The notes below the pieces were generated by a model. It saw only the letters and a list, made by a program, of their open reading frames with translations. It did no database searches and was not told where the DNA came from. Shown one piece after another: positions 1-31,345 of a stretch of DNA of 64,000 nt (position 1 is the first letter of the stretch; each line of letters opens with the position of its first letter). The DNA is from Ruaniaceae bacterium KH17 (GTDB lineage Bacteria > Actinomycetota > Actinomycetes > Actinomycetales > Actinomycetaceae). Position numbers and translations under genes: made by a program. Location of the stretch: contig FZQV01000013.1 of assembly GCA_900199505.1 (NCBI GenBank), positions 1-64,000 on the forward strand, in the 5' to 3' direction.

Positions 1-22
1 ACCGACGGTCCCTCCACCGGCC

Positions 23-18564: not shown

Positions 18565-19308
18565 GTGCCCACAGCCTCCGCGTCGGTGCCGCGCGCCCTT
18601 TCCATTGGCGTGGTCGACGATGATCCGCAGGAGCTCGCGCACCTCACCGCGCTCCTCGATCGATATGCGCAGGAGCACGGCCACAACTTCCGAATCACGC
18701 AGTTCGACGACGGCGCCGCCCTCCTCGTCGATTACGCACCCATCTACGACATCCTGATCCTCGATATCCAGATGCCGGGGATTGATGGCATGCGTGCAGC
18801 TACCGCAATCCGCAAGGTGGATTCCTCCGTGGTGCTGATCTTCGCCACGAAGACCGCGCAGTATGCGGTCTCGGGCTACGCGGTGCAGGCCCAGTCGTAC
18901 CTCCTGAAACCGATCTCTTCTTTCGCGCTCTCCACCGAACTCGATCGCGCCATGACGCAGCTCGACCGCATGCAGCGGGCCTCGATCCTCGTGGGTGCCC
19001 GCGCCAATCTTCGGCGCGTGGACGTCGCGGACATCATCTATGTGGAGTCCAAGCGACACAAGCTCACGGTGCACCTCACGGATGGCGAGATCGAGTTCAA
19101 TGCGACCCTCAAGGAGTACGAGGACATGCTCCTCCCCCACGATTTCTATCGCTCGAACAGCAGTTACCTGATCAACCTGCGCAACCTCGCAGCGATCGAC
19201 GGCGATGACACCCGCATGAGCAATGGTCACCTCTTGAAGATCAGCCGGGCCCGCAAGAAGGGTCTCCTCGAAGCGCTCGCCGCGCACATCGGCGGGAACC
19301 TGCCGTGA
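18565..19308 (+). CDS. LytTR-family response regulator (AgrA/LytR-like)
   Basis: A 247-residue protein. The receiver domain (about 12-130) has the acidic pocket VVDDD, the phospho-acceptor D67 in LILDIQMPG and K115 in YLLKP. The C-terminal LytTR DNA-binding domain (about 145-240) includes IIYVESKRHKLTVHL and FYRSNSSYLINL. GGAGAGGAGAGAAC precedes the GTG start. It overlaps the downstream sensor gene by 4 nt. LytTR regulators often control exported or surface factors; the neighbouring GH3/GT cluster is a plausible but unproven target. Confidence 0.92.
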   Translation: MPTASASVPRALSIGVVDDDPQELAHLTALLDRYAQEHGHNFRITQFDDGAALLVDYAPIYDILILDIQMPGIDGMRAATAIRKVDSSVVLIFATKTAQYAVSGYAVQAQSYLLKPISSFALSTELDRAMTQLDRMQRASILVGARANLRRVDVADIIYVESKRHKLTVHLTDGEIEFNATLKEYEDMLLPHDFYRSNSSYLINLRNLAAIDGDDTRMSNGHLLKISRARKKGLLEALAAHIGGNLP

Positions 19309-20642
19309 TCGAGGGGCTTCTGCCCGATATTCCGCGGCTCTTCACCGGTATCGCCGAGTGGGCGGCCGTGCTTGTCTACGTACTTGCTACAAATCGTCGT
19401 TCTGCGCGATGGATCCCGATCGTCGTCGGCCTGTTGCCGGCGTTCATCGGGTTGCAATTGTTCCTCGGCATTCTGCCGCAGGTGTTGTGGACGCTGGGGA
19501 TGTTCACCGCCGCGCTGGCGGTGCTGGGTGCGATCCAGTTGTCAACGACGTATGCGTGGCGCGATTCCCTCTACCTCGCCATGCGTGCGTTCATCCTCGC
19601 CGAGTTCATGCAATCACTGCACTGGCAGCTGTGGGTGGCGCTGCCCTGGTCCACCGATCAGATCCTCACCGATTCGACGCTCCCACCACCGATCGTGGCG
19701 GGCGCCCTGGTGTCGCTGGTGCTGATCTATGGCGCCGTGTGCGCGGTGGTCTATGTTGCCGAGCGGCGCAACTTCTCGGGCACACCGTGGACCGGTGTCG
19801 AACGGTCGACACTACTGATCTCGGTGGGGATCGCGCTGGTCGCCTTCACCTTCTCGAACATGAGTTTCGTGATCAACACCGGCCCATTCGTGGGCAGCAG
19901 TGGCACGGATGTCTTCTATATCCGGACGCTTGTGGACCTGCTGGGGCTGGTCGCGCTGTACGTTCAGCAGTCGCGGCGCAGCCATTCACGTGCGAGCAGT
20001 GAGCTCGCGGTGACGCAGCTGATGATGCAGGCGCAACACTCGCAGTACCTCCAGTCGCAACGAAACGCTGACGATCTGAATCGTATCCATCACGATCTGA
20101 AGCATGTGGTGCACGCGCTCCGCGAGGAGGAGTCCGCCGAGCGCCGCGAGCACTACTTAAACGAACTCGAGTCCACGGTGCGGCGCTACGAGTCCGAGAC
20201 TCGCACCGGCCATGCGCCTCTCGACGTGATCCTCTCCACCCAGCAGTCGCGATGTGTGGAGCACGGGATCTCAATGACCACGATGGTGGACGGCACGGCG
20301 CTCAAGTTCATGGACCTGATGAGCCTGTCCACCCTCTTCGGCAATGCGCTCGACAACGCGATCGAAGCGAGCTGCAAGATCCCGGATCCCGAGCAGCGCA
20401 TCATCAAGGTGGCGGCGTTCAACCGGCAGAATTTCGTGATCATTACGATCGAGAACTACTGGCCGCACGAGGTGGAGTTCGACGACGGCATCCCCCAGAC
20501 CACGAAAGCTAACTCCGCCCATCACGGGTTTGGTTCACGCAGTATCCGCCGGATCACCGAGACGTATCGAGGGACGGTGACGTTTACGAGCGAGAACGAT
20601 TGGTTCACGGTGCGGGTGTTGCTGCCGCGCCAGGCTAGTTGA
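19305..20642 (+). CDS. AgrC-like sensor histidine kinase, GHKL type
   Basis: A 445-residue membrane sensor. About six TM helices span residues 15-225, followed by a linker helix. The phospho-acceptor region RIHHDLKHVVHAL is at about 260-272, with the N-box FGNALDNAIEAS near 345-356 and HGFGSRSI near 410, typical of GHKL kinases paired with LytTR regulators. Known relatives sense peptides, but no AgrB/AgrD-like genes lie nearby. The GTGA overlap makes an operon with the response regulator. Confidence 0.9.
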   Translation: MIEGLLPDIPRLFTGIAEWAAVLVYVLATNRRSARWIPIVVGLLPAFIGLQLFLGILPQVLWTLGMFTAALAVLGAIQLSTTYAWRDSLYLAMRAFILAEFMQSLHWQLWVALPWSTDQILTDSTLPPPIVAGALVSLVLIYGAVCAVVYVAERRNFSGTPWTGVERSTLLISVGIALVAFTFSNMSFVINTGPFVGSSGTDVFYIRTLVDLLGLVALYVQQSRRSHSRASSELAVTQLMMQAQHSQYLQSQRNADDLNRIHHDLKHVVHALREEESAERREHYLNELESTVRRYESETRTGHAPLDVILSTQQSRCVEHGISMTTMVDGTALKFMDLMSLSTLFGNALDNAIEASCKIPDPEQRIIKVAAFNRQNFVIITIENYWPHEVEFDDGIPQTTKANSAHHGFGSRSIRRITETYRGTVTFTSENDWFTVRVLLPRQAS

Positions 20643-21663
20643 ATCCGAAGATGCGATGGGCGATGTGGTAGCCGTACCGGACAGTTGCAGTGGCCGCCTT
20701 ACCGTGACTTGAGACGGCGAGGCCGAGCGGGAGCCGCCGCATGTCTCGGTACACATCGGCGTCGATTGCGCGAATCTCGTCCCATAGATCGGCCTTCAGC
20801 TGCAAGGCGGCGTCGCTTCCGTCCCGGATCAGCAGCGCTGACGAGACGGTGGAGACCATCGTCGCGTAGTTGACCATGTACCTGTCGAGTCGCCACGGGA
20901 TCCCCTTCTGGCGGGCGTCACTTAAGGACTGAATGAGGATCCGGTTCACTCGCAACTGCTGGTCGATGCGCGAGAGCATCACTTTCTCGTTGACGGACTG
21001 ATCTGAGCGGCCAATGAAGTACCGGTAGAGGTCCACTTCGAGGTAGTACAGCGTGCGCACCGTGGGTAGTGGCGCGAACGCCACATAATTGTCCACATAG
21101 AAGCAGTTCTCTGGAACATCCAGCCCAAAATCGCGCAGCAACTCGGTGCGATAGATCATCGAGTGCATCAGCATGGGCTGCCAGGGGAGGAATGAGCGAA
21201 CGTCTGGCCACCCGAGCACGCGGTTGCGCGGCAACGCGCGCTTGTAGTTCACCGATTGGCAACGCTTCTTGCCCTGCTTTTCGTAGACGAAGTTGGTGAC
21301 GAGCAAGTCCACCGGCTCATCGCGGCGAACCCAGGTGCGCAACAGTGCGAGCGCCTCGCGATACGCCTCGGGATCGAGCCAATCGTCTGAGTCCAGTACC
21401 TTAAAATAGGTGCCGCGCGCCACAGCCAATCCCGCGTTAATCGCCGAACCGTGCCCGCCATTCTCCTTGTGCACCGCCCGCACACGGCCCGGATAGCGTG
21501 CCACGTAATCGTCCGCGATGCCCGCTGTCGCGTCACTGGAGCCGTCGTTGACGATGACTACTTCGACGTCGTCGGTCCCTTCAATCAGAAGGGAATCGAT
21601 ACTGCCACCCATGTACTCCGCGGAGTTGAAGCATGGGACAACGATGGAAAGCGTAATGGACAT
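20635..21663 (-). CDS. Family 2 glycosyltransferase
   Basis: A 342-residue GT-A fold enzyme. The N-terminus ITLSIVVPCFNSAEYM, the VNDGSSDATAGIADDY nucleotide-binding segment (about 38-53) and VLDSDDWLD (DxD-type metal site, about 88-96) are all present. There is no TM helix, so it should act at the cytoplasmic face on a lipid- or protein-linked acceptor. It follows the gtrA-like gene on the same strand by about 33 bp, hence probably one operon with the cytosolic GH3. Its last bases overlap the convergent sensor kinase gene by 8 bp. Confidence 0.9.
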   Translation of the reverse strand: MSITLSIVVPCFNSAEYMGGSIDSLLIEGTDDVEVVIVNDGSSDATAGIADDYVARYPGRVRAVHKENGGHGSAINAGLAVARGTYFKVLDSDDWLDPEAYREALALLRTWVRRDEPVDLLVTNFVYEKQGKKRCQSVNYKRALPRNRVLGWPDVRSFLPWQPMLMHSMIYRTELLRDFGLDVPENCFYVDNYVAFAPLPTVRTLYYLEVDLYRYFIGRSDQSVNEKVMLSRIDQQLRVNRILIQSLSDARQKGIPWRLDRYMVNYATMVSTVSSALLIRDGSDAALQLKADLWDEIRAIDADVYRDMRRLPLGLAVSSHGKAATATVRYGYHIAHRIFGFN

Positions 21664-21696
21664 TTCGAGCTAAGCGTATCGGCTGGCAAGCGGCTA

Positions 21697-22326
21697 CTAG
21701 GCAACTTCTCCCGTGGTGTCTGACTCATTCATCTCGGCCTCTGGGACCCGCTTAAAGATCACCTTGAAGATTGGGAAGAAGATCCAGAACGAGACGGCCG
21801 AGTTGATGATCATCGTGATCACGTCTGCGATCGTCTGACCCGTTGCTCCCCAGCCCCATGTCTCCATGAGGAGGGTGTAGATCGGGTCCTTGTAGAGGGT
21901 CTGCAGGAACGCCGCACCGATCGTGATGCCGATGTAGGCGACGACATACCAGAAGGCCGCGCGCCAGATCGAGGAGTTCGACTTGAACGTCACGTTGCGC
22001 TGTGCGAAGAAGTTGATCACCTGCGCGATCAGGATCGTGACCTGCACGGCGAGGAAGTATGAGAGGCCACCGCCGCCGCCCGGTAGCGCGCCCGCCGGGT
22101 AGTCGAAGAGGTAGTACGGGGAACCGTCACCGCGCGTGCCGAGGGTCAGCCACTGGAAGGACTGGTTGATCAGATCCGTGTTGTCGAGGAATGACTTGAG
22201 AATTGGCATCAGCGCGAGCTGGAGGACCGTGACCCCGTTAGAGAGGATGAAGAACATCACGAACTGGGATCCGGTTTCGTGCCTCTCTTCGAAACCCTTC
22301 CACCATTCCTTGATTGAGTTGATCAT
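21697..22326 (-). CDS. GtrA-like membrane protein
   Basis: A 209-residue protein with four predicted TM helices. The segment QVINFFAQRNVTFKS near 110-125 matches the conserved GtrA signature. GtrA-type proteins are proposed to move or present lipid-linked sugars, often beside a GT2 enzyme as here. An additional Gly-rich extracellular loop (PAGALPGGGGGL) lies between helices 1 and 2. It overlaps the upstream GH3 stop by 4 nt (ATGA). Confidence 0.85.
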   Translation of the reverse strand: MINSIKEWWKGFEERHETGSQFVMFFILSNGVTVLQLALMPILKSFLDNTDLINQSFQWLTLGTRGDGSPYYLFDYPAGALPGGGGGLSYFLAVQVTILIAQVINFFAQRNVTFKSNSSIWRAAFWYVVAYIGITIGAAFLQTLYKDPIYTLLMETWGWGATGQTIADVITMIINSAVSFWIFFPIFKVIFKRVPEAEMNESDTTGEVA

Positions 22327-24776
22327 GAGTTCGCTCCAGTGGTTGTTGAGCCCTCTGCGAGCTCGGAGAATTGTGTACTGAGTTGCTTCTGCCGCTTCAG
22401 GTTCGAGAAGAATCCACCGATAACCTGGCCGAGCCCCTTGACGAAATTGCCGTTGACGAGGGTGAGGACGCCCTCGGTGAGCTTCCTATCGGCCAGGCCT
22501 CCGCTCATCTTGTAGATCGCGCGGAAGGGCATGTGGTATTGGAAGAGCAGGTTCAGATCCGGTTCGCCGGTCTTTTCCATCTTGGCCATGCCACGTGCGA
22601 AGTACTGCGTGGAGACGAGCCGGCCGAGGCCGCTGCGTGCGTTCTTGAGGTCCGAGAGCGGCGAGTTCAGGCCCAGCGGGGCTGCATCGTTGCCCTCGCC
22701 CGGGATCGGGTGCTCGAGGAGCGCCTCAAACTCGACATCGGTGACGCCCTGCACCTTGCCGCTGGAGTATGCCGGAATTGTGACCGTCAGGTGCACGGTG
22801 GGGGCCTCGCCGGCAATCGCGATCGTTGCCGTCTCTGCAAGTTCTGCCACGTTCGGCCCGACGGCGATTGTGTAGTCGCCAGCAACCGTCACCCAGCGCT
22901 TTGCGGAGCGGTCGAAGGCGCGGAAGGAGTACTCGTCGAAGGCGATCCGCACCGTGGCGGACTCGCCCGGCTCGAGGTGGACTTTACGGAAGCCCACGAG
23001 CTTGATGCTCGGAGTCGGGCCAAGCTTGCGGGCTTCGGTGGGCGGCGTGGCGTAGAACTGCACCACCTCGCTGCCAGCCACGGCCCCAGTGTTGGTCACA
23101 GTGACGCTCGCACCATCGCCGTCGGCCTGCAAGTGTGAGTACTCGAAGGTGGTGTAGCTCAGTCCAAATCCGAAGGGGAAGCGAACCGGAGTCTCGGAAG
23201 TCGCGTAGTAGCGGTATCCAACGAACGGGCCTTCGCGGTAGAGCGAGTTCCGTCCGAGTGCAGGGAAGTTGCCTGCAGTGGGGGTATCCGCGAGTGCGTA
23301 TGCATAGGTTTCGGCGAGCCGCCCGGAGGGGTTCACTGAACCGTCGAGCACCCGCACCATCGCCTGTGCACCGGCCTGGCCCGCGAGGTAGCCGTGGACG
23401 AGGGCCCTGGTCTGGCTGAGCCATGGCATCTCCACCGGCGAACCGCCCGCGAAGACGACGACGACGTTGGGGTTGGCAGCCGAGACCGCCTCGAGGAGTT
23501 CCACCTGATCGGCGGGCAGCGCCATGTTGTCGCGGTCCTTGCCTTCGGACTCGGTGAATCCGTCGAGGCCAAGGTAGAGCAGAACTACGTCTGCCGCGCG
23601 TGCCGCCGCGAGTGCCTCGGTGATCCGCTGTGGGTCGCGCGGGCTCGTGCTGGAGAAGCCTTGTGCCTCCGCGACCACGTCGAGCCCGGAGGCGCGCAAT
23701 GCCTCAATCGGTGTGGTGAGCTGCGTGGGGTTGACGAGGGACGAACCGGCACCTTGGTAGCGCGGTTCATAGGCGAACTCGCCGATCACGGCAACGCGGG
23801 TGGCGGGGGCGAGCGGCAGGATGTTGTCCTCATTCTTGAGGAGCACGATGGACTGCTCGGCGGCGTGCTGTGCGAGGGCCCGGCTCGTCTCGAAGACGGA
23901 ATCGTCCACCCCAGCCGGTTGGATGCGGGCGACGAGCTCAATCATCTCGGCAACGCGTGCGTTGACGGCATCGGGATCGACCGTGCCGTCATCGAGTAGC
24001 GCGGCGACCGAGTCGAAGCCGGGCGAGGGCATCTCGAGGGTACCGCCGGCCTCGATGGCGGCCTTCGGGTCGTTGCCGCCGCCCCAGTCGGTGATGACGG
24101 CACCGTCAAAGCCCCATTCTTCGCGGAGGATCTCGGTGAGGAGTTGGCGGTGCTCGTTGGCGTAGGTGCCGTTGACCAGGTTGTAGCTGGACATAATGGT
24201 CTTTGGCTGGGATTCCTTGACCACGATCTCGAAGGCGGTCAGGTAGATCTCTCGAAGCGTTGCCTCATCGAGCACGGAGTTAGAGGTCATCCGCCGTGTC
24301 TCTTGGCTGTTGACGGCGTAGTGCTTGGGGCAGGCGGCAATGCCCGCGGATTGAATACCACGCACGTAGGCTGCGCCGAACTTGCCAGCGAGGTATGGGT
24401 CTTCGGAGAAGTACTCGAAGTTGCGCCCGCCGAGGGGGCTGCGCTTGATATTGAGGCCCGGGCCGAGCAAGACATCCACGCCGATCTTCACCGACTCGCG
24501 GCCAAGCGCCGCGCCCACCTGCTCTGCGAGTTCTGGGTCCCAGCTGTTGGCGATCGTGGCCGCCGTCGGGAAACATGTGGCCGGCTGGGAGGCATTGAGA
24601 CCGAGGTGGTCGGCAGAGCCCATCTGCCTGCGCACGCCGTGGGGGCCGTCGGACATCCAGATCGAGCGCAGTCCGATACGCGGGATCGCACGAGACTCCC
24701 AGGTACTCTTTCCGCTCAGCAGTGCGAGCTTCTCGAGCTTCGACAGCTGTGCTGCTTGGTCCTGTGAGCTAGTCAC
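22323..24776 (-). CDS. Cytosolic beta-glucosidase-type GH3 enzyme
   Basis: An 817-residue GH3 enzyme in normal domain order: TIM barrel, alpha/beta sandwich, fibronectin-III-like domain (about 580-655). The nucleophile is D230 in GAVITDWGGG and K151-H152 of CPKHYAVNSQE bind substrate. An extra C-terminal segment of about 130 residues (FRAIYKMSGGLADRK) follows the core. There is no signal peptide, so it works on imported oligosaccharides. GGAGG lies 4 nt before the GTG start. The downstream gtrA-like and GT2 genes appear co-transcribed. Exact sugar specificity cannot be read from sequence. Confidence 0.92.
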   Translation of the reverse strand: MTSSQDQAAQLSKLEKLALLSGKSTWESRAIPRIGLRSIWMSDGPHGVRRQMGSADHLGLNASQPATCFPTAATIANSWDPELAEQVGAALGRESVKIGVDVLLGPGLNIKRSPLGGRNFEYFSEDPYLAGKFGAAYVRGIQSAGIAACPKHYAVNSQETRRMTSNSVLDEATLREIYLTAFEIVVKESQPKTIMSSYNLVNGTYANEHRQLLTEILREEWGFDGAVITDWGGGNDPKAAIEAGGTLEMPSPGFDSVAALLDDGTVDPDAVNARVAEMIELVARIQPAGVDDSVFETSRALAQHAAEQSIVLLKNEDNILPLAPATRVAVIGEFAYEPRYQGAGSSLVNPTQLTTPIEALRASGLDVVAEAQGFSSTSPRDPQRITEALAAARAADVVLLYLGLDGFTESEGKDRDNMALPADQVELLEAVSAANPNVVVVFAGGSPVEMPWLSQTRALVHGYLAGQAGAQAMVRVLDGSVNPSGRLAETYAYALADTPTAGNFPALGRNSLYREGPFVGYRYYATSETPVRFPFGFGLSYTTFEYSHLQADGDGASVTVTNTGAVAGSEVVQFYATPPTEARKLGPTPSIKLVGFRKVHLEPGESATVRIAFDEYSFRAFDRSAKRWVTVAGDYTIAVGPNVAELAETATIAIAGEAPTVHLTVTIPAYSSGKVQGVTDVEFEALLEHPIPGEGNDAAPLGLNSPLSDLKNARSGLGRLVSTQYFARGMAKMEKTGEPDLNLLFQYHMPFRAIYKMSGGLADRKLTEGVLTLVNGNFVKGLGQVIGGFFSNLKRQKQLSTQFSELAEGSTTTGANS

Positions 24777-24855
24777 GACGCCTCCTTCGGCGGGGTCAAG
24801 AACGCGCTCTTCAGGCGGGTTCGTTTGTAAGTGTTGAGGGCGGCGCTCGGCCGCT

Positions 24856-24887
24856 GGTGGGTGCGCTCCGGTTGAAACGCACCCACC
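24856..24887 (-). terminator. Hairpin after the small lipoprotein gene
   Basis: Perfect 10-bp arms (GGTGGGTGCG / CGCACCCACC) with a 12-nt loop lie just beyond the lipoprotein stop. No T tract follows on the minus strand. It separates that gene from the cytosolic GH3 operon. Confidence 0.6.
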
Positions 24888-24893
24888 GAGGTC

Positions 24894-25331
24894 CTAGGCA
24901 GTCTTCTCGGAGACGTTTCCGTCCTGGTCCGAGGTCCAGACCTTGCCGGTTGCGGCTGAAGTCAGCTCGACAACGAAGTCCGTGCCATCCGTAATCTGGA
25001 TCGTAGACATGTACTTCTCGGTCGCGTCAGAGGGGTAGAAGGGCATGACCCACATGCCATACTTCTGCGTGGGGTTGTCCACGTCCGAGGCGAGCATGAT
25101 CTGTGTCATGGGCGAACTCTCGGCCGCAATCTGGTCGTTGATGATCTTCACAGCCTCAGCGACGTCGGCAAGGAACTCGTCCGACTCGCCAGCGGGGACC
25201 TCCTCGGAGGTCTCACCGCCGCCGGTGCTCTCTCCGCCGGTCTCGCCACTTTCCCCGCCGCAGGCCGTCAGGCCGAACGCGAGCGCCACGGTTGCCACGG
25301 CGGTGCCGAGGCGAGCGATTGTCTTCTTCAT
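24894..25331 (-). CDS. Small lipoprotein of unknown function
   Basis: A 145-residue protein with a lipoprotein signal peptide (MKKTIARLGTAVATVALAFG, then LTAC), so it is anchored outside the membrane. A Gly/Glu/Ser-rich linker is followed by a compact domain with KYGMWVMPFYPSDATEKY. GGAGAAAACT precedes the ATG. It lies between two GH3 genes with hairpins on both sides, suggesting its own transcript. I do not recognise the family. A role in the same extracellular glycan pathway is inference from position. Confidence 0.8.
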   Translation of the reverse strand: MKKTIARLGTAVATVALAFGLTACGGESGETGGESTGGGETSEEVPAGESDEFLADVAEAVKIINDQIAAESSPMTQIMLASDVDNPTQKYGMWVMPFYPSDATEKYMSTIQITDGTDFVVELTSAATGKVWTSDQDGNVSEKTA

Positions 25332-25397
25332 AGTTTTCTCCTCGTTATGTTCCGGGGCTGGTTGGCCCCTCGTCTGATGGAGTGCTCCACCATGATC

Positions 25398-25435
25398 CTC
25401 GGTGGGGGACGGCCACAGGAGCCGCCCCCACCGAG
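25398..25435 (-). terminator. Hairpin after the lipoprotein GH3 gene
   Basis: Perfect 11-bp arms (CTCGGTGGGGG / CCCCCACCGAG) with a 16-nt loop lie 5 bp past the GH3 stop at 25441. There is no T tract, but position and stability fit a terminator or 3'-end hairpin. Confidence 0.6.
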
Positions 25436-25440
25436 TTGAG

Positions 25441-27876
25441 TTAGCCGATCGGGCTACCAGTGCAACTGTTCAGGCCGAAGCCGTACTCCCAGGTGTTGCC
25501 CTCGGAGTCAACATACGGGTCCAGATCGAACGGCACGTCCTCGGCGTTGGCCTCCACCGTGTCCATGTCCTTCGGGAAGGTCACGGGCAGCCGCCCCTCG
25601 GAGGCCTGCGTTCCGGTGATGATCTCCAGCATCGCACCATCGGAGACTCCCATGCCGATCACGATTGCGTCCGCGTTCTCCTCGAACTCAGAGGGGATCA
25701 CCGGGTTAGCGGCACTGAGTGCCACGATCAACGGGATGTCCTTGCCGGACGCCTCGATCAGCTCCACCGCGCGCTCGAACGCGTCAAGGTCAGCCTCGTT
25801 TGCGATCCGCGAGGTGTTGCCGTAATACGAACGGTTCTGCTTGGTGCCATCGTCGAGGATGTCACCAGTGATCGAGGTCTGACGCACATTCTCGCCATCC
25901 GCAGTGTACGGGCGGTACTGGAGCGAGAGCGGATACCACTCATCGGTCTCGGCATCGTGGCCAGCAGACGAGAACGGGTTCCCGTTGTCCGGCGAGGCCA
26001 TGCCCACGATCACGAGGTCAACGTCCGAGAGATCGGGTGAAGTGTAAGCCTCAACCGTGCCATCTTCATTGAGCTCAGGTGTGTCCGTCACGACCTCACC
26101 GAAGTACTGCTCGGCTGCCTCAACGCTCACGGAAGGGCCCTCGGTGACGGTGGCTGGTCCAAACATCCCGCCGAATCCAGTGTTGTAGGTGTTCGGGATG
26201 TAGACCTTCATCGAGCTGTAGTCCGGCTGAGCCTCACAGACGATCGCGCCGTCGGTGTTCTTGGCAACCACAACAGAGTCGAGCTGTGCCTGCCATCCGG
26301 CTGCGACGAACTCGTCATTGCCAACGACCTCAAGCGAGTTCTCGAGATCCTGGTAGGGGCTCTCATACATTCCAGCGAGCACGAAGTTTCTAAGGTTGCG
26401 CTCGGCGGACTGACGGAAGCGGGCATCCGCATCAATGTCAACATCGCCGGCCTCGAAGGCGGCCTGCCACAGCTCACCCGCTTCAAGCACCGGACCCACC
26501 TGGTTGAAGCCACCAAGCGAATCGTGGCCGGTCTGCATCGTCTTGAAGATGCGCTCGGGAACCGTCAGGTCACCGACGCCCCATGCCATTCCAAAGAACG
26601 CGTCAGGATCGGCCTCACCGCCGTTGAGGACGCCCCAATCGGTGACCACAACACCGTCGAAGCCCATCTCGTCGCGGAGGACGCTCATCGCGGCCGAGTT
26701 GTAGGCCGAACCAACAGCCTCGTCACCATAGACAGGATTACCATCGGCATCGAGCAGGATCGAATAAGAGGTCATCAGACCGGCGGCATCGAGGCCGGCC
26801 TCGAACGGCAGGAGATGGGACTCGAGGTCACCACCGGTGGCCACCGCATACTTGCCCGCGTCACTGTGCGACTCACGGCCTCCTTCACCGCGACCATCAC
26901 CGGGGAAGTGCTTGATCATCACCGCAACAGAGCCCTGACCCCAGCCTTCGGCGTTCCCTGCCTCGTCGTAGGTGTTCTGGAACCCCTCAACGTATGCCTC
27001 GGCCATCTCTGCGACCATCTCCGGGTCTTCACCGAAGGTTCCGTTGTTGCGCAGCCAGCGCGGCTCAGTCGCCAGATCGATCTGCGGCGAGAGCGCGTTG
27101 GACAGGCCCATCGCGCGGTACTCGGTTGACGCAACCTGGGCGAACTCGAGAACGCGCTCGGGGTCAAACGTGGCTGCGAGGCCGAGTGACGACGGCCATT
27201 GCGAGACACCGCCGGCACGACCCGTGTAGTTGTCTTTCGCGTCCGAACGCGGGTCAGAGTTGAACGAGACCGGAACGTACGGGTTCTCGGCGGTGGAGAG
27301 AGTCTCCACGTAGGCCTGCATCGCGTTGGCCCAAGTCACCGATGCCTCGACATCCGACGGACCAGCGTGGAGCACATTGCGTAGCCAAGACTCGGAGAGG
27401 TAGGTCTTCTGAGCGTCGGTCAGGCCGTCACCCGGCGAACCCTCGTGCGAGCTGAATAGCATCAGGCCAGCTGCCTGTTCGCGCGTGAGTTGCGAGGCGA
27501 TATCTGCGGCGCGCTCCTTGGCGTCAACGCGCCAGTCCTCCCAGGTGTCGAGCGTGCCATTGCCGTTCATATCCTTGAACGCGTAGGTCAGATCGCCGTC
27601 GGTCTCCTCCAAGAGCGAGAAGCCACCGTCCTTGCTGTAAGAAAGGACCGGACCGTCACCGGGGTTGGTGACGACAACGAAGGTCGTCGTCCCGTCCGTG
27701 ACCTCTTGTGTTGAGTAGCTGTTCTCGCCGCCGTCAATTGGCGCCGAGGTCTCGTCTGCGTCAGTTGTTGGTGCAACTGTTGCGTCGCCTTCATCCGTGT
27801 TGCCCGAGCACGCGCTCAGCACCACGGCAATAGCGGCGGCGAATGCCATACCGCGAACGATGGGTGGTCTCTTCAT
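25441..27876 (-). CDS. Surface lipoprotein GH3 glycosidase
   Basis: An 811-residue GH3 enzyme. The ATG at 27876, with AGAGGG upstream, gives a lipoprotein signal peptide (MAFAAAIAVVLSACSG), which places the enzyme on the outer face of the membrane; an in-frame extension to 28101 would destroy this. An unusual N-terminal region precedes the barrel. The nucleophile is about D413 in GVVVTDWGVLNGG. The TIM barrel and sandwich domain are present, but there is no clear fibronectin-III tail. The next GH3 gene upstream ends at a strong terminator, so this gene has its own promoter near the dyads at 28033-28086. Confidence 0.9.
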   Translation of the reverse strand: MKRPPIVRGMAFAAAIAVVLSACSGNTDEGDATVAPTTDADETSAPIDGGENSYSTQEVTDGTTTFVVVTNPGDGPVLSYSKDGGFSLLEETDGDLTYAFKDMNGNGTLDTWEDWRVDAKERAADIASQLTREQAAGLMLFSSHEGSPGDGLTDAQKTYLSESWLRNVLHAGPSDVEASVTWANAMQAYVETLSTAENPYVPVSFNSDPRSDAKDNYTGRAGGVSQWPSSLGLAATFDPERVLEFAQVASTEYRAMGLSNALSPQIDLATEPRWLRNNGTFGEDPEMVAEMAEAYVEGFQNTYDEAGNAEGWGQGSVAVMIKHFPGDGRGEGGRESHSDAGKYAVATGGDLESHLLPFEAGLDAAGLMTSYSILLDADGNPVYGDEAVGSAYNSAAMSVLRDEMGFDGVVVTDWGVLNGGEADPDAFFGMAWGVGDLTVPERIFKTMQTGHDSLGGFNQVGPVLEAGELWQAAFEAGDVDIDADARFRQSAERNLRNFVLAGMYESPYQDLENSLEVVGNDEFVAAGWQAQLDSVVVAKNTDGAIVCEAQPDYSSMKVYIPNTYNTGFGGMFGPATVTEGPSVSVEAAEQYFGEVVTDTPELNEDGTVEAYTSPDLSDVDLVIVGMASPDNGNPFSSAGHDAETDEWYPLSLQYRPYTADGENVRQTSITGDILDDGTKQNRSYYGNTSRIANEADLDAFERAVELIEASGKDIPLIVALSAANPVIPSEFEENADAIVIGMGVSDGAMLEIITGTQASEGRLPVTFPKDMDTVEANAEDVPFDLDPYVDSEGNTWEYGFGLNSCTGSPIG

Positions 27877-28032
27877 CGATTTCCCTCTTCTTTGTACTGG
27901 CGACCAATCGGGGGGTCGACTGGCCATGCAAAGTCCCTGTGGATCCGAGAGGCGCCGCTTCTTCTTCAACACCGTTGTCCGGGCCATTTGGCCGCTGCCG
28001 CATCCTTGAGAACTTTCGTATCTTGACCGTAT

Positions 28033-28057
28033 GACGCCAAATGTGACGTTTGGTGCC
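28033..28057. promoter_or_regulatory. Dyad upstream of the lipoprotein GH3 gene
   Basis: GACGCCAAATGTGACGTTTG continuing to GTGCC forms an imperfect palindrome (arms CCAAATGT / ACGTTTGG, one mismatch). It lies 4 bp from the larger operator-like element at 28062-28086 and shares the CGTTT...GGTGC half with it, suggesting two binding sites for one regulator. Confidence 0.45.
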
Positions 28058-28061
28058 GCTA

Positions 28062-28086
28062 TGCACGAAACGTCGTTTTCGGTGCA
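28062..28086. promoter_or_regulatory. 25-bp operator-like element, copy 1
   Basis: The element begins TGCACGAAACG and ends CGTTTTCGGTGCA. It is a near palindrome and 21 of 25 positions match the element at 31279-31303 upstream of the third GH3 gene. The AACG-N-CGTT centre resembles LacI-family operators; no LacI gene is in the window. Confidence 0.6.
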
Positions 28087-28109
28087 TGTTCGGCATGACA
28101 AAGAAGCGA

Positions 28110-28143
28110 AATGGCGGGGCTGGATCTCTCCAGCCCCGCCATT
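28110..28143 (-). terminator. Strong terminator after the permuted GH3 gene
   Basis: A perfect 14-bp stem (AATGGCGGGGCTGG / CCAGCCCCGCCATT) with a 6-nt loop, followed on the minus strand by TCGCTTCTTT. It lies 31 bp past the stop at 28175. Confidence 0.85.
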
Positions 28144-28174
28144 GCCACAGTCCGAGACGGACCGCGAGTTCCCG

Positions 28175-31138
28175 TTAGGCCGTCTTCTTGTGCTTCTTCA
28201 CGCGGCGCGTGACGAGCACCGCGCCTCCAACGACGAGGAGACCGAGGAGAGCGCTCACGCCCCATAAGAGGTACTGCCACATAGGCGGCGTGTAGTCGAC
28301 GGTCGTGCCGGGAACAAACCCATTCATGGCGTTGGAGTTGGCCACGGTAAACAGGACGTTGTGGGTTGCCGTGCGCATATCACTGACTGCTTGCGCGGAC
28401 GATGTCTCGTAGAAAGACTTCGACGGCGCGAAGGTCAGCGTCAGGTCAGTGCCTGCGTAGATGGACTGGTTCGGGTTCATGTACGGGTACAGGTTGAAGT
28501 CCGAGATCGCGAAGCCCTCAAAACCCCACTCGCCCCGCAGCACGTCCGTCATGAGCGGCTTCGAGCCGCCCGCCCACACCGCACCGATCCGGTTGAACGA
28601 GCTCATCACGGCGCTTGAACCAACCGAAGACTCCGCCCACGTGCCACTATCATCTGCAATGTACGGTACCGGCATCTCGACAGCCTTCACAGCGAGCTCG
28701 AACGGCTTCAGGTAAAGCTCACGGATTGTCTGCTCGGTCGCGAACGTAGCAATACCGTTGTCCACGCGACTGTCTTCCTGATCGTTCATCGCAAAGTGCT
28801 TGTGCGTGGTGTACAGACCATACTGTGCCGCGCCATTCGAGACGGCACCAGCCATCACACCGGAGAGCAGCGGGTCTTCCGAGTAGTACTCGAAGTTACG
28901 CCCGGCAAACGGGGAACGGTGCAGGTTCATCGCCGGTGCATACCAACCGGACACCTGCTTGTGGATCGACTCATTGCCGACCATCGTTCCCATCAGGGTG
29001 CCCATGTCAGCGTTCCAGGACTGGGCCACCAGATACTCCGAGGGGTACGCGACACCATTCACAGAGGCGTTGATGAAGGACGAGAAGCCCGCCGGACCAT
29101 CCAGATCAGTTGCCTGGGGCTTCGCGATCGAGACGATCGCCGCGCTCTGGTAGGCACCATTCAGCAGCATGTCCTGCATCTCCTGGACAGTGAGTGAGTC
29201 AAGCAACTCGTCCCACTTCGGGTCGTCATAGGCGAGCCCCCGCAGGTCGATCAGGGTCAGATCGCTGTCCTCTCCCGTGGCCGGCATCTCGACGTCTGAA
29301 GACTCCGCAATACCTTCGTGATCGAATGGCGCGAACCCAGCCGCGATCTCATCGTTCGCGATGAACAGATCGTCAGAGGGCGCCGTCGGGAATGTCCCGG
29401 CGAAGTCGGCGCGGCTCATGTTGAGAACCTTGCCCTCTTCAGCGGTATCGGTGAAGCGCGCCGAGACATCATCAAAGCGGTTCGTCACCTCGCCCGCGTC
29501 ACTGGAGCGCGTGTTGTCGCCCGAGTACACGATCTCCGAGTCCACGGTGTAGACGATCGGCTCCACGCCGTCGGCTAAGTTGTGGGAATCGGTCTGGACC
29601 CGCAGCTCGTAGTCACCGGCCTCCAGAACGTATGCCTGAGCGTCTTCATAGTCATACGAGGCCATGTCCTCGACGGGCAGCGAGAGCGTCACCGTCTCGG
29701 AGGCGCCGGGCTCGATGACGCCGGTCTTCTGGAATGCACCCAACACAACCTCAGACTTCTCTATCCCACCTGGGGTGTAGGGAGCGGAGTAGTAGAGCTC
29801 CACCACATCCTTGCCGGCAGTCGCACCGGTGTTGGTGACCGTCACATCAATGGTGATGGTGCCATCCACGGGAGCGAGGTTCTGGCCGGCAATCTCCCAC
29901 GCGAAGTCCGTATAGCTGAGGCCGTATCCGAACGGGTAGACAACGGCGTCATCGTAGTCGATAAAGCCTTCCGCAGCCGCGGTCTCGTAGTAGCGGTACC
30001 CGACGTAGATGCCCTCTTGGTAGTCGAGGAACGGAGCGTTCGGGGTAATCTCGGCATTCGACACAACGGAACCCAGCGCGGGTTGCGGGTAGTCAACCTC
30101 GATGTTCTCGAAGATGAACGTCCCGAAGTTCACGAACGTGGGATCAGCCGTGAAGTCACGCGACCAGACGTCCACGGTGCGGCCCGAGGGGTTCACGTCA
30201 CCTGTCAGGACGTCACCCACGGCAGCAAAACCGGTCGCACCACCGGAACCGATGAGCAGAATGTCATCGACATCAGGGTTGTCCTGTACCGGGCCAAGCT
30301 CCATGCTCGTGGACGCGTTGATGAGGACGACGACGGTCTCGAAGTTCTCGGTGGCGAGATCGATCAGGTCCAGCTCATCCTTGTTGAGCTCGAGCTGGTG
30401 CTGGCCCTCGGTGTAGTTGTCATCCCACTTAGACATGTCGCGGGTGAGGTCTCCACCTTCACCACCGGGGCGGCCGATGTAGATGAGCGCGGCGTCGTTG
30501 TACTCAGCGAAGCTGGAGGAGACGGCCTCGTAGTTCGAACGGGGCATTTCGCCGATGTAGTACGTGGACTTGTCCGGCTGATCCATCTCGATGTGGCCGC
30601 GCGGGTTCGCGTCCTTATCCGCCACGAACTCTTCGAGCGCACTGAAGACGGTCTCGTTGATCACGAAGCCCGCGTCTTCGATGCCCTGGCGGGCAGTAAT
30701 GGCTGTGCTCGTGTCCACAGAGCCGGAGCCCGCACCTCCAAAGACTGGATCCGCAGCGGAGCGGCCCAGCATGGTCACCTTCGCGCCGGGAGCGAGCGGC
30801 AGGGTCTCAGGGTCAAACTTCGCGAGAACGATTCCCTCACCCGCGATCTCCTGGACGGCCTCGCGCGCGGCTGCGTCGACGTCATCGATCGTGGCGTAGT
30901 CCGACTTGTAGTACTGGCTATCCCAGCTTTCGGCGGCCTCAGGGGTCGCAACCGTGTACGTTCCGGTGCCTCCCAACTGCGGCAGGACTCCAGCAATCCA
31001 GCCGAAGCCGATACTCGCCGCCACGTTCAGAATGACCACAAGGGCGGTGACCAGGGCGAGAATCGGTACCCAGATCCCGAGATATTTCTTGTTAGACATC
31101 GGCTGCTTAGCCGCCTTCGCCGCACTCTTGGCGTTCAC
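28175..31138 (-). CDS. Membrane-anchored GH3 glycosidase with permuted domain order
   Basis: A 987-residue protein. The GTG at 31138 has GAGGAG 7 nt upstream. A TM helix (about 20-45) is followed by the GH3 alpha/beta sandwich domain (LPLAPGAKVTMLGRSAADPV), a fibronectin-III-like domain (near 390-470), then the TIM barrel with HRSPFAGRNFEYYSEDP, HKHFAMNDQE and the nucleophile D880 in FAISDFNLYPY. A second TM helix and KHKKTA end the protein. The sandwich-before-barrel order is the reverse of usual GH3 and is known in some bacterial beta-glucosidases. Anchoring at both ends is unusual. Confidence 0.9.
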   Translation of the reverse strand: MNAKSAAKAAKQPMSNKKYLGIWVPILALVTALVVILNVAASIGFGWIAGVLPQLGGTGTYTVATPEAAESWDSQYYKSDYATIDDVDAAAREAVQEIAGEGIVLAKFDPETLPLAPGAKVTMLGRSAADPVFGGAGSGSVDTSTAITARQGIEDAGFVINETVFSALEEFVADKDANPRGHIEMDQPDKSTYYIGEMPRSNYEAVSSSFAEYNDAALIYIGRPGGEGGDLTRDMSKWDDNYTEGQHQLELNKDELDLIDLATENFETVVVLINASTSMELGPVQDNPDVDDILLIGSGGATGFAAVGDVLTGDVNPSGRTVDVWSRDFTADPTFVNFGTFIFENIEVDYPQPALGSVVSNAEITPNAPFLDYQEGIYVGYRYYETAAAEGFIDYDDAVVYPFGYGLSYTDFAWEIAGQNLAPVDGTITIDVTVTNTGATAGKDVVELYYSAPYTPGGIEKSEVVLGAFQKTGVIEPGASETVTLSLPVEDMASYDYEDAQAYVLEAGDYELRVQTDSHNLADGVEPIVYTVDSEIVYSGDNTRSSDAGEVTNRFDDVSARFTDTAEEGKVLNMSRADFAGTFPTAPSDDLFIANDEIAAGFAPFDHEGIAESSDVEMPATGEDSDLTLIDLRGLAYDDPKWDELLDSLTVQEMQDMLLNGAYQSAAIVSIAKPQATDLDGPAGFSSFINASVNGVAYPSEYLVAQSWNADMGTLMGTMVGNESIHKQVSGWYAPAMNLHRSPFAGRNFEYYSEDPLLSGVMAGAVSNGAAQYGLYTTHKHFAMNDQEDSRVDNGIATFATEQTIRELYLKPFELAVKAVEMPVPYIADDSGTWAESSVGSSAVMSSFNRIGAVWAGGSKPLMTDVLRGEWGFEGFAISDFNLYPYMNPNQSIYAGTDLTLTFAPSKSFYETSSAQAVSDMRTATHNVLFTVANSNAMNGFVPGTTVDYTPPMWQYLLWGVSALLGLLVVGGAVLVTRRVKKHKKTA

Positions 31139-31243
31139 GTGAGTTCTCCTCTGTACTCGCGGGTGGGTCGAGGCCCACACTCCGTGTGGCGCATTCCCGT
31201 CCACACCGTCCTCGGCACAGCGCACAGAATGCTCCTGTTGTGA

Positions 31244-31263
31244 GCCTAGGCGAGCACCTAGGC
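31244..31263. promoter_or_regulatory. Short dyad upstream of the permuted GH3 gene
   Basis: GCCTAGG-CGAGCA-CCTAGGC is a perfect 7-bp-arm inverted repeat about 106 bp upstream of the start. CACAGAAT occurs on both sides (31223-31230 and 31263-31270), 40 bp apart. A regulator site is plausible; its owner is unknown. Confidence 0.4.
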
Positions 31264-31278
31264 ACAGAATCGCTGGCC

Positions 31279-31303
31279 TGCACGATCGGTCGTTTTCGGA
31301 GCA
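31279..31303. promoter_or_regulatory. 25-bp operator-like element, copy 2
   Basis: The element begins TGCACGATCGG and ends CGTTTTCGGAGCA, matching copy 1 (28062-28086) at 21 of 25 positions. Both lie upstream of GH3 genes in the same orientation, about 140-190 bp before the start codon. Confidence 0.6.
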
Positions 31304-31345
31304 CAGATGGCGGCACAGTTCTTTACGTGCGCCACTCAAACTGGC

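Follow-up and report, generated by a model that had tools for sequence, protein, structure and literature searches.

The 64,000-nucleotide stretch of DNA from Ruaniaceae bacterium KH17 that we analysed (the window) contains three GH3 genes, two of which, one for a lipoprotein and one for a membrane-anchored protein, are each preceded by a similar 25-bp element. What are these elements, and which regulator might read them? The sequences TGCACGAAACGTCGTTTTCGGTGCA at 28062-28086 and TGCACGATCGGTCGTTTTCGGAGCA at 31279-31303 are identical at 21 of 25 positions, and the DNA flanking the two 25-mers shows no kinship, so the coordinates, the identity and the unrelated surroundings described in the original prediction all hold. 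A merged pattern of both 25-mers, allowing up to three mismatches, matched two places only in the window and none in 100 shuffles. The same tolerance applied to the whole 2.72-Mb genome returned these two sites only, with 0 matches for a reversed-pattern control. The motif sits in intergenic DNA, not in genes, and it is kept upstream of orthologues; it thus passes both checks that the original prediction had set for itself. The proposal that the lipoprotein and membrane GH3 genes have operator-like elements in common, and hence probably one regulator, is thus supported at the level of sequence.

The membrane-anchored GH3 gene (28175..31138, minus strand, 987 aa) encodes a GH3 C-domain, an Fn3-like domain and a GH3 N-domain according to Pfam and its translation. 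The order in this protein is permuted, with the C-domain ahead of the N-domain, and a hydrophobic segment lies near each end. The lipoprotein GH3 gene (25441..27876, minus strand, 811 aa) was likewise assigned from Pfam and translation. Also on the minus strand are a small lipoprotein gene without a Pfam family, which is a conserved member of the cluster (24894..25331, 145 aa), and, by Pfam, a cytoplasmic-type GH3 gene (22323..24776, 817 aa), a GtrA-type flippase gene (21697..22326) and a GT2 glycosyltransferase gene (20635..21663). On the plus strand, a LytTR response regulator gene (18565..19308) overlaps a GHKL histidine kinase gene (19305..20642, Pfam) by 4 bp. The regulator protein has both a receiver domain (PF00072, 7e-15) and a LytTR domain (PF04397, 1.1e-17), and an alignment of its DNA-binding domain with the AgrA domain (3bs1) has an E-value of 2e-6. 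This gene, the sole LytTR gene in the genome, adjoins the GH3 cluster and the gene of the GHKL kinase, its presumed partner.

We took the best relatives of the membrane GH3 gene with their flanks from named genomes. In the Cellulomonas orthologues, the element recurs some 90 bp upstream of the gene, where it reads TGCCGCGAAACCGACTGATCGTGC. A profile seeded on these Cellulomonas sites was iterated over the promoters of lipoprotein, membrane and cytoplasmic GH3 orthologues in loci L019-L050, and sites were found in Cellulomonas, Actinotalea, Sanguibacter, Oerskovia, Demequina, Tessaracoccus, Schaalia, Actinomyces and others; the GH3 promoters examined in Cellulomonas triticagri (L025) had no site. 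The 45 sites aligned with flanks form a one-way direct repeat, RCAGRTYGTGC-N10-RCAGRTYGTGC, with an exact period of 21 bp. Conserved blocks occupy alignment positions -7 to 3 and 14 to 24 with an A-rich middle, the self-similarity of the profile is maximal at a shift of 21, and repeats 1 and 2 agree on average at 8.1 of 11 positions (3.6 for random pairs). Every accepted site points the same way relative to its own gene. At L050, with its two diverging GH3 genes, a single site was counted for each of them and is oriented towards the lipoprotein gene; in the closest relative (G088), each of the two diverging GH3 genes has its own facing site and -10. Judged by this two-block alignment with its 21-bp repeat, the 25-mer therefore takes in the three final bases of repeat 1 and the whole of repeat 2.

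Upstream of the membrane GH3 gene, the predicted repeat 1 is GCCATCTGTGC (31301..31311, minus strand; orthologue alignment, and a match to the genome pattern with 0 mismatches), and repeat 2, ACCGATCGTGC (31280..31290, minus strand), lies 21 bp from it. For the lipoprotein GH3 gene, the corresponding repeats are the degenerate GCCGAACATGC (28084..28094, minus strand; 2 mismatches to the pattern) and ACGTTTCGTGC (28063..28073, minus strand; orthologue alignment). The window's own repeats are so degenerate, with 5/11 and 6/11 matches, which is within chance, that the direct-repeat structure is invisible without relatives, and our case for direct repeats is built on the orthologues rather than on the window by itself.

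The information in the promoter alignment is near zero between positions 26 and 55 and is followed by a conserved T....T hexamer at positions 56-61, which reads TANNNT in the window and in most Cellulomonas promoters and places a -10 box about 31 bp downstream of the repeat element. The putative -10 sequences are TAGGCT for the membrane GH3 gene (31243..31248, minus strand, alignment positions 56-61) and TACGGT at an equal distance for the lipoprotein GH3 gene (28026..28031, minus strand), a positional assignment derived from the conserved columns 56 and 61. The -35 slots, at 31266-31271 and 28049-28054 respectively, lie 17 bp from the -10 and have no recognisable -35 sequence, the membrane GH3 promoter lacking a good -35 match. 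A related half site had also been suggested at 28033-28057, but it overlaps the -35 slot and adjoins the -10, and we excluded it from the element because its columns are unconserved among the orthologues. Counted as 9-bp repeats, the cores in the 45 orthologous promoters lie at -7..1 and 14..22 with 12 nt between them, and the second ends 10 bp before the -35 slot. The pair would be centred about 59-60 bp upstream of the predicted start.

LytTR sites consist of 9-11 nt repeats with 11-13 nt spacers (PMC4847170), a format found in the orthologous promoters. For LytTR regulators, the gap is also given as 12 bp and the distance to the -35 as strongly biased to 10 bp (PMC6193735), and the AgrA repeats are centred near -60 (PMC4227749). 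The repeats, gap and -35 spacing seen here match this published geometry, and the element therefore fits a LytTR-type site. Since LytTR sites have no common consensus (PMC4847170), the match is one of geometry more than of letters. The AgrA operators at agr P2/P3 of Staphylococcus aureus resemble the elements in having two direct repeats near -60 and a LytTR-domain regulator (PMC4227749), but their repeat letters differ, and the targets here are glycosidase and glycan genes. The sites of HdrR/BrsR of Streptococcus mutans and relatives are alike in their 9-bp repeats, 12-bp gap and distance of about 10 bp to the -35 (PMC6193735). Those LytTR proteins are paired with a membrane inhibitor and autoregulate, whereas the LytTR protein here carries a receiver domain and is accompanied by a GHKL kinase; its predicted targets are GH3 genes. 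A promoter scan of the window's LytTR gene gave no site, and thus no sign of autoregulation; one site lies upstream of the LytTR gene itself in L030. The YpdB site at yhjX of Escherichia coli also combines a LytTR response regulator, very few targets and a tandem direct repeat (PMC4847170), but it belongs to a Gram-negative nutrient-sensing system with a transporter as the target.

The distribution of the regulator points in the same direction as the geometry. Of 33 actinobacterial neighbourhoods, the window's among them, 27 have LytTR and the other six are cut off by contig ends; LytTR thus accompanies the GH3 gene in 27/27 neighbourhoods not cut by a contig end. Among 119 genomes of the order, a LytTR orthologue occurs in 10/10 genomes with a GH3 orthologue (called at about 59% identity or more) versus 3/109 of the others (Fisher p 2.7e-12). 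At six Bacillota loci, among them those of Bacillus methanolicus (L069) and Youngiibacter (L076), ACAGTTTGTGC-like repeats with the 21-bp period occur a short way upstream of a GH3 gene. In a broad-consensus comparison, the Bacillota copies read ACAGTTTGT, and most actinobacterial copies carry R as their fifth base. No clear repeat was seen in several Bacillota and Coriobacteriia loci with a nearby LytTR gene. Within the window's own family, the eight further genomes sampled have neither the GH3 nor the LytTR orthologue; the cluster (18565-31138) is therefore patchy, which suggests horizontal gain or repeated loss.

An independent profile, built leaving out the window's own sites, was run over the whole genome, with E-values that are rough. 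The 31 kb site is strong and ranked first, with E 2.3e-4; the 28 kb site is individually weak and came fourth, its E of 0.65 falling short of significance by itself. Over the 119 genomes, all ten profile matches at E<1e-3, some of which are training sites, fell in LytTR-bearing genomes. A one-mismatch pattern over the same genomes gave matches no commoner than its reversed control and is too loose alone. In four LytTR-bearing genomes, remote sites outside the training set lie upstream of genes for secreted esterases (G045, G028 and G103, the last with E 0.002) and, in G088, upstream of a GH3-GtrA-GT2 operon beside UDP-galactopyranose mutase. Sites were also seen upstream of another membrane GH3 gene, another GtrA gene and esterase genes that follow the kinase gene. 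No operator lies within 500 bp of the cytoplasmic GH3 gene in the window; its orthologues often have one.

Taken together, the repeat structure, orientation, spacing, -10 position, conservation, co-occurrence with LytTR and the single LytTR gene, all read from sequence, lead us to propose that both elements are the cores of LytTR-type operators that switch on the lipoprotein and membrane GH3 genes, a reading to which we assign a probability of roughly 0.87. In the proposed mechanism, the neighbouring GHKL kinase would phosphorylate the LytTR regulator (18565-19308) on a signal, and two LytTR molecules would bind side by side on the direct repeats. Bound LytTR would then recruit RNA polymerase at a promoter with a poor -35 slot, a mode of activation rather than repression that would turn on both GH3 genes, lipoprotein and membrane, in concert from predicted transcription starts near 28019 and 31236. 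The predicted regulon in this genome comprises one LytTR gene and two operators.

A different direct-repeat regulator or an alternative sigma factor could in principle read the element, the LytTR gene being a mere neighbour. The element has a direction and a constant spacing to the -10, which is also true of promoter elements. Against this, all strong genome-wide matches lie in genomes with this LytTR orthologue, the repeat length, gap and -35 distance are those of LytTR sites, and the association between LytTR and the repeats extends into Bacillota. We therefore consider such a reader improbable.

Even less probable is that the elements are LacI-family operators, that is, near-palindromes at which a sugar-responsive LacI dimer represses the GH3 genes. 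Many glycosidase genes are under LacI control, and the genome has 16 LacI genes. The original prediction had described both elements as near-palindromic and had left the regulator between LytTR and LacI candidates. At 28062-28086 the symmetry is weakly present (7/12 pairs, which 4% of random 25-mers equal), and at 31279-31303 it is absent (4/12 pairs, random average 3.5). Palindromic pairing of the orthologous sites is at background (3.95/12, control 3.49), their orientation is uniform, and the apparent palindrome at 28 kb is, on the alignment, incidental. LacI operators also lie upstream of glycoside hydrolase genes but are palindromic, unlike the element here. None of the 16 LacI genes is inside the window, and no LacI homologue was found in 43 cluster neighbourhoods with the homologues tried. 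A GH3 paralogue pair near a LacI gene on another contig (C17) lacks the site. Background symmetry, uniform orientation and the absence of LacI from the neighbourhoods thus largely refute the palindrome reading; of the two candidate types, the LytTR one, whose gene lies beside the cluster, is favoured, and the LacI-type palindrome gives way to one-way direct repeats. A direct-repeat site may pass for a palindrome when viewed in a single genome. The C17 pair (126000-137000, L117) consists of a cytoplasmic-type GH3 and a 42% relative of the membrane GH3, has no LytTR-type site and is likely a separate LacI-type system. Finally, chance similarity, or a functionless promoter copy left by recent duplication, would agree with repeats that are unremarkable in the window alone, but with 0 chance matches in shuffles, none elsewhere in the genome, unrelated flanks and, above all, orthologous positions conserved in several families of Actinomycetota, it is refuted and can be given next to no weight.

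With the LytTR-type operators as the preferred reading, what would the regulon do? The company of the GH3 enzymes (GtrA, GT2, secreted esterases and often UDP-galactopyranose mutase) suggests that the predicted regulon may make and trim a glycan at the cell surface. In the extracellular glycosylation of wall polymers, the lipid-linked sugars are moved by GtrA flippases (PMC13390465). In the window's genome, the UDP-galactopyranose mutase gene is on another contig (C16). A more specific picture is speculative and, in our estimate, rather unlikely in full: a LytTR/GHKL system of Actinomycetota and Bacillota might govern a surface-glycan module of a GtrA flippase, GT2, UDP-galactopyranose mutase, several GH3 enzymes and secreted esterases, in which the membrane and lipoprotein GH3 enzymes would trim a galactofuranose-type decoration and may generate the kinase signal. 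The operator type is already known, and the regulon appears undescribed in the literature searched: no paper there, most subscription journals lying outside the search, joins LytTR to GH3, GtrA or galactofuranose. A conserved, apparently undescribed two-phylum gene cluster thereby gains a candidate regulator, operator and target set. The most familiar LytTR systems are those of virulence and competence in Bacillota, and a glycan-related LytTR regulon in Actinomycetota would broaden the known roles of these regulators.

In about 19 neighbourhoods from two phyla, a UDP-galactopyranose mutase gene is part of the GH3/GtrA/GT2/LytTR cluster or adjoins it, for example, at L126 7245-8423, L044 15325-16440 and L069 16892-17971. 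Secreted or lipoprotein PF00756 esterases with a direct-repeat site upstream, none of which is within the window's cluster, occur at L115 4846-6171, L040 ~18771-20091, L049 15796-16917, L124 4812-6293 and L127 5795-7333. A good direct-repeat site at L033 18160-18193 lies upstream of an ABC transporter-like gene and points away from the neighbouring LytTR gene.
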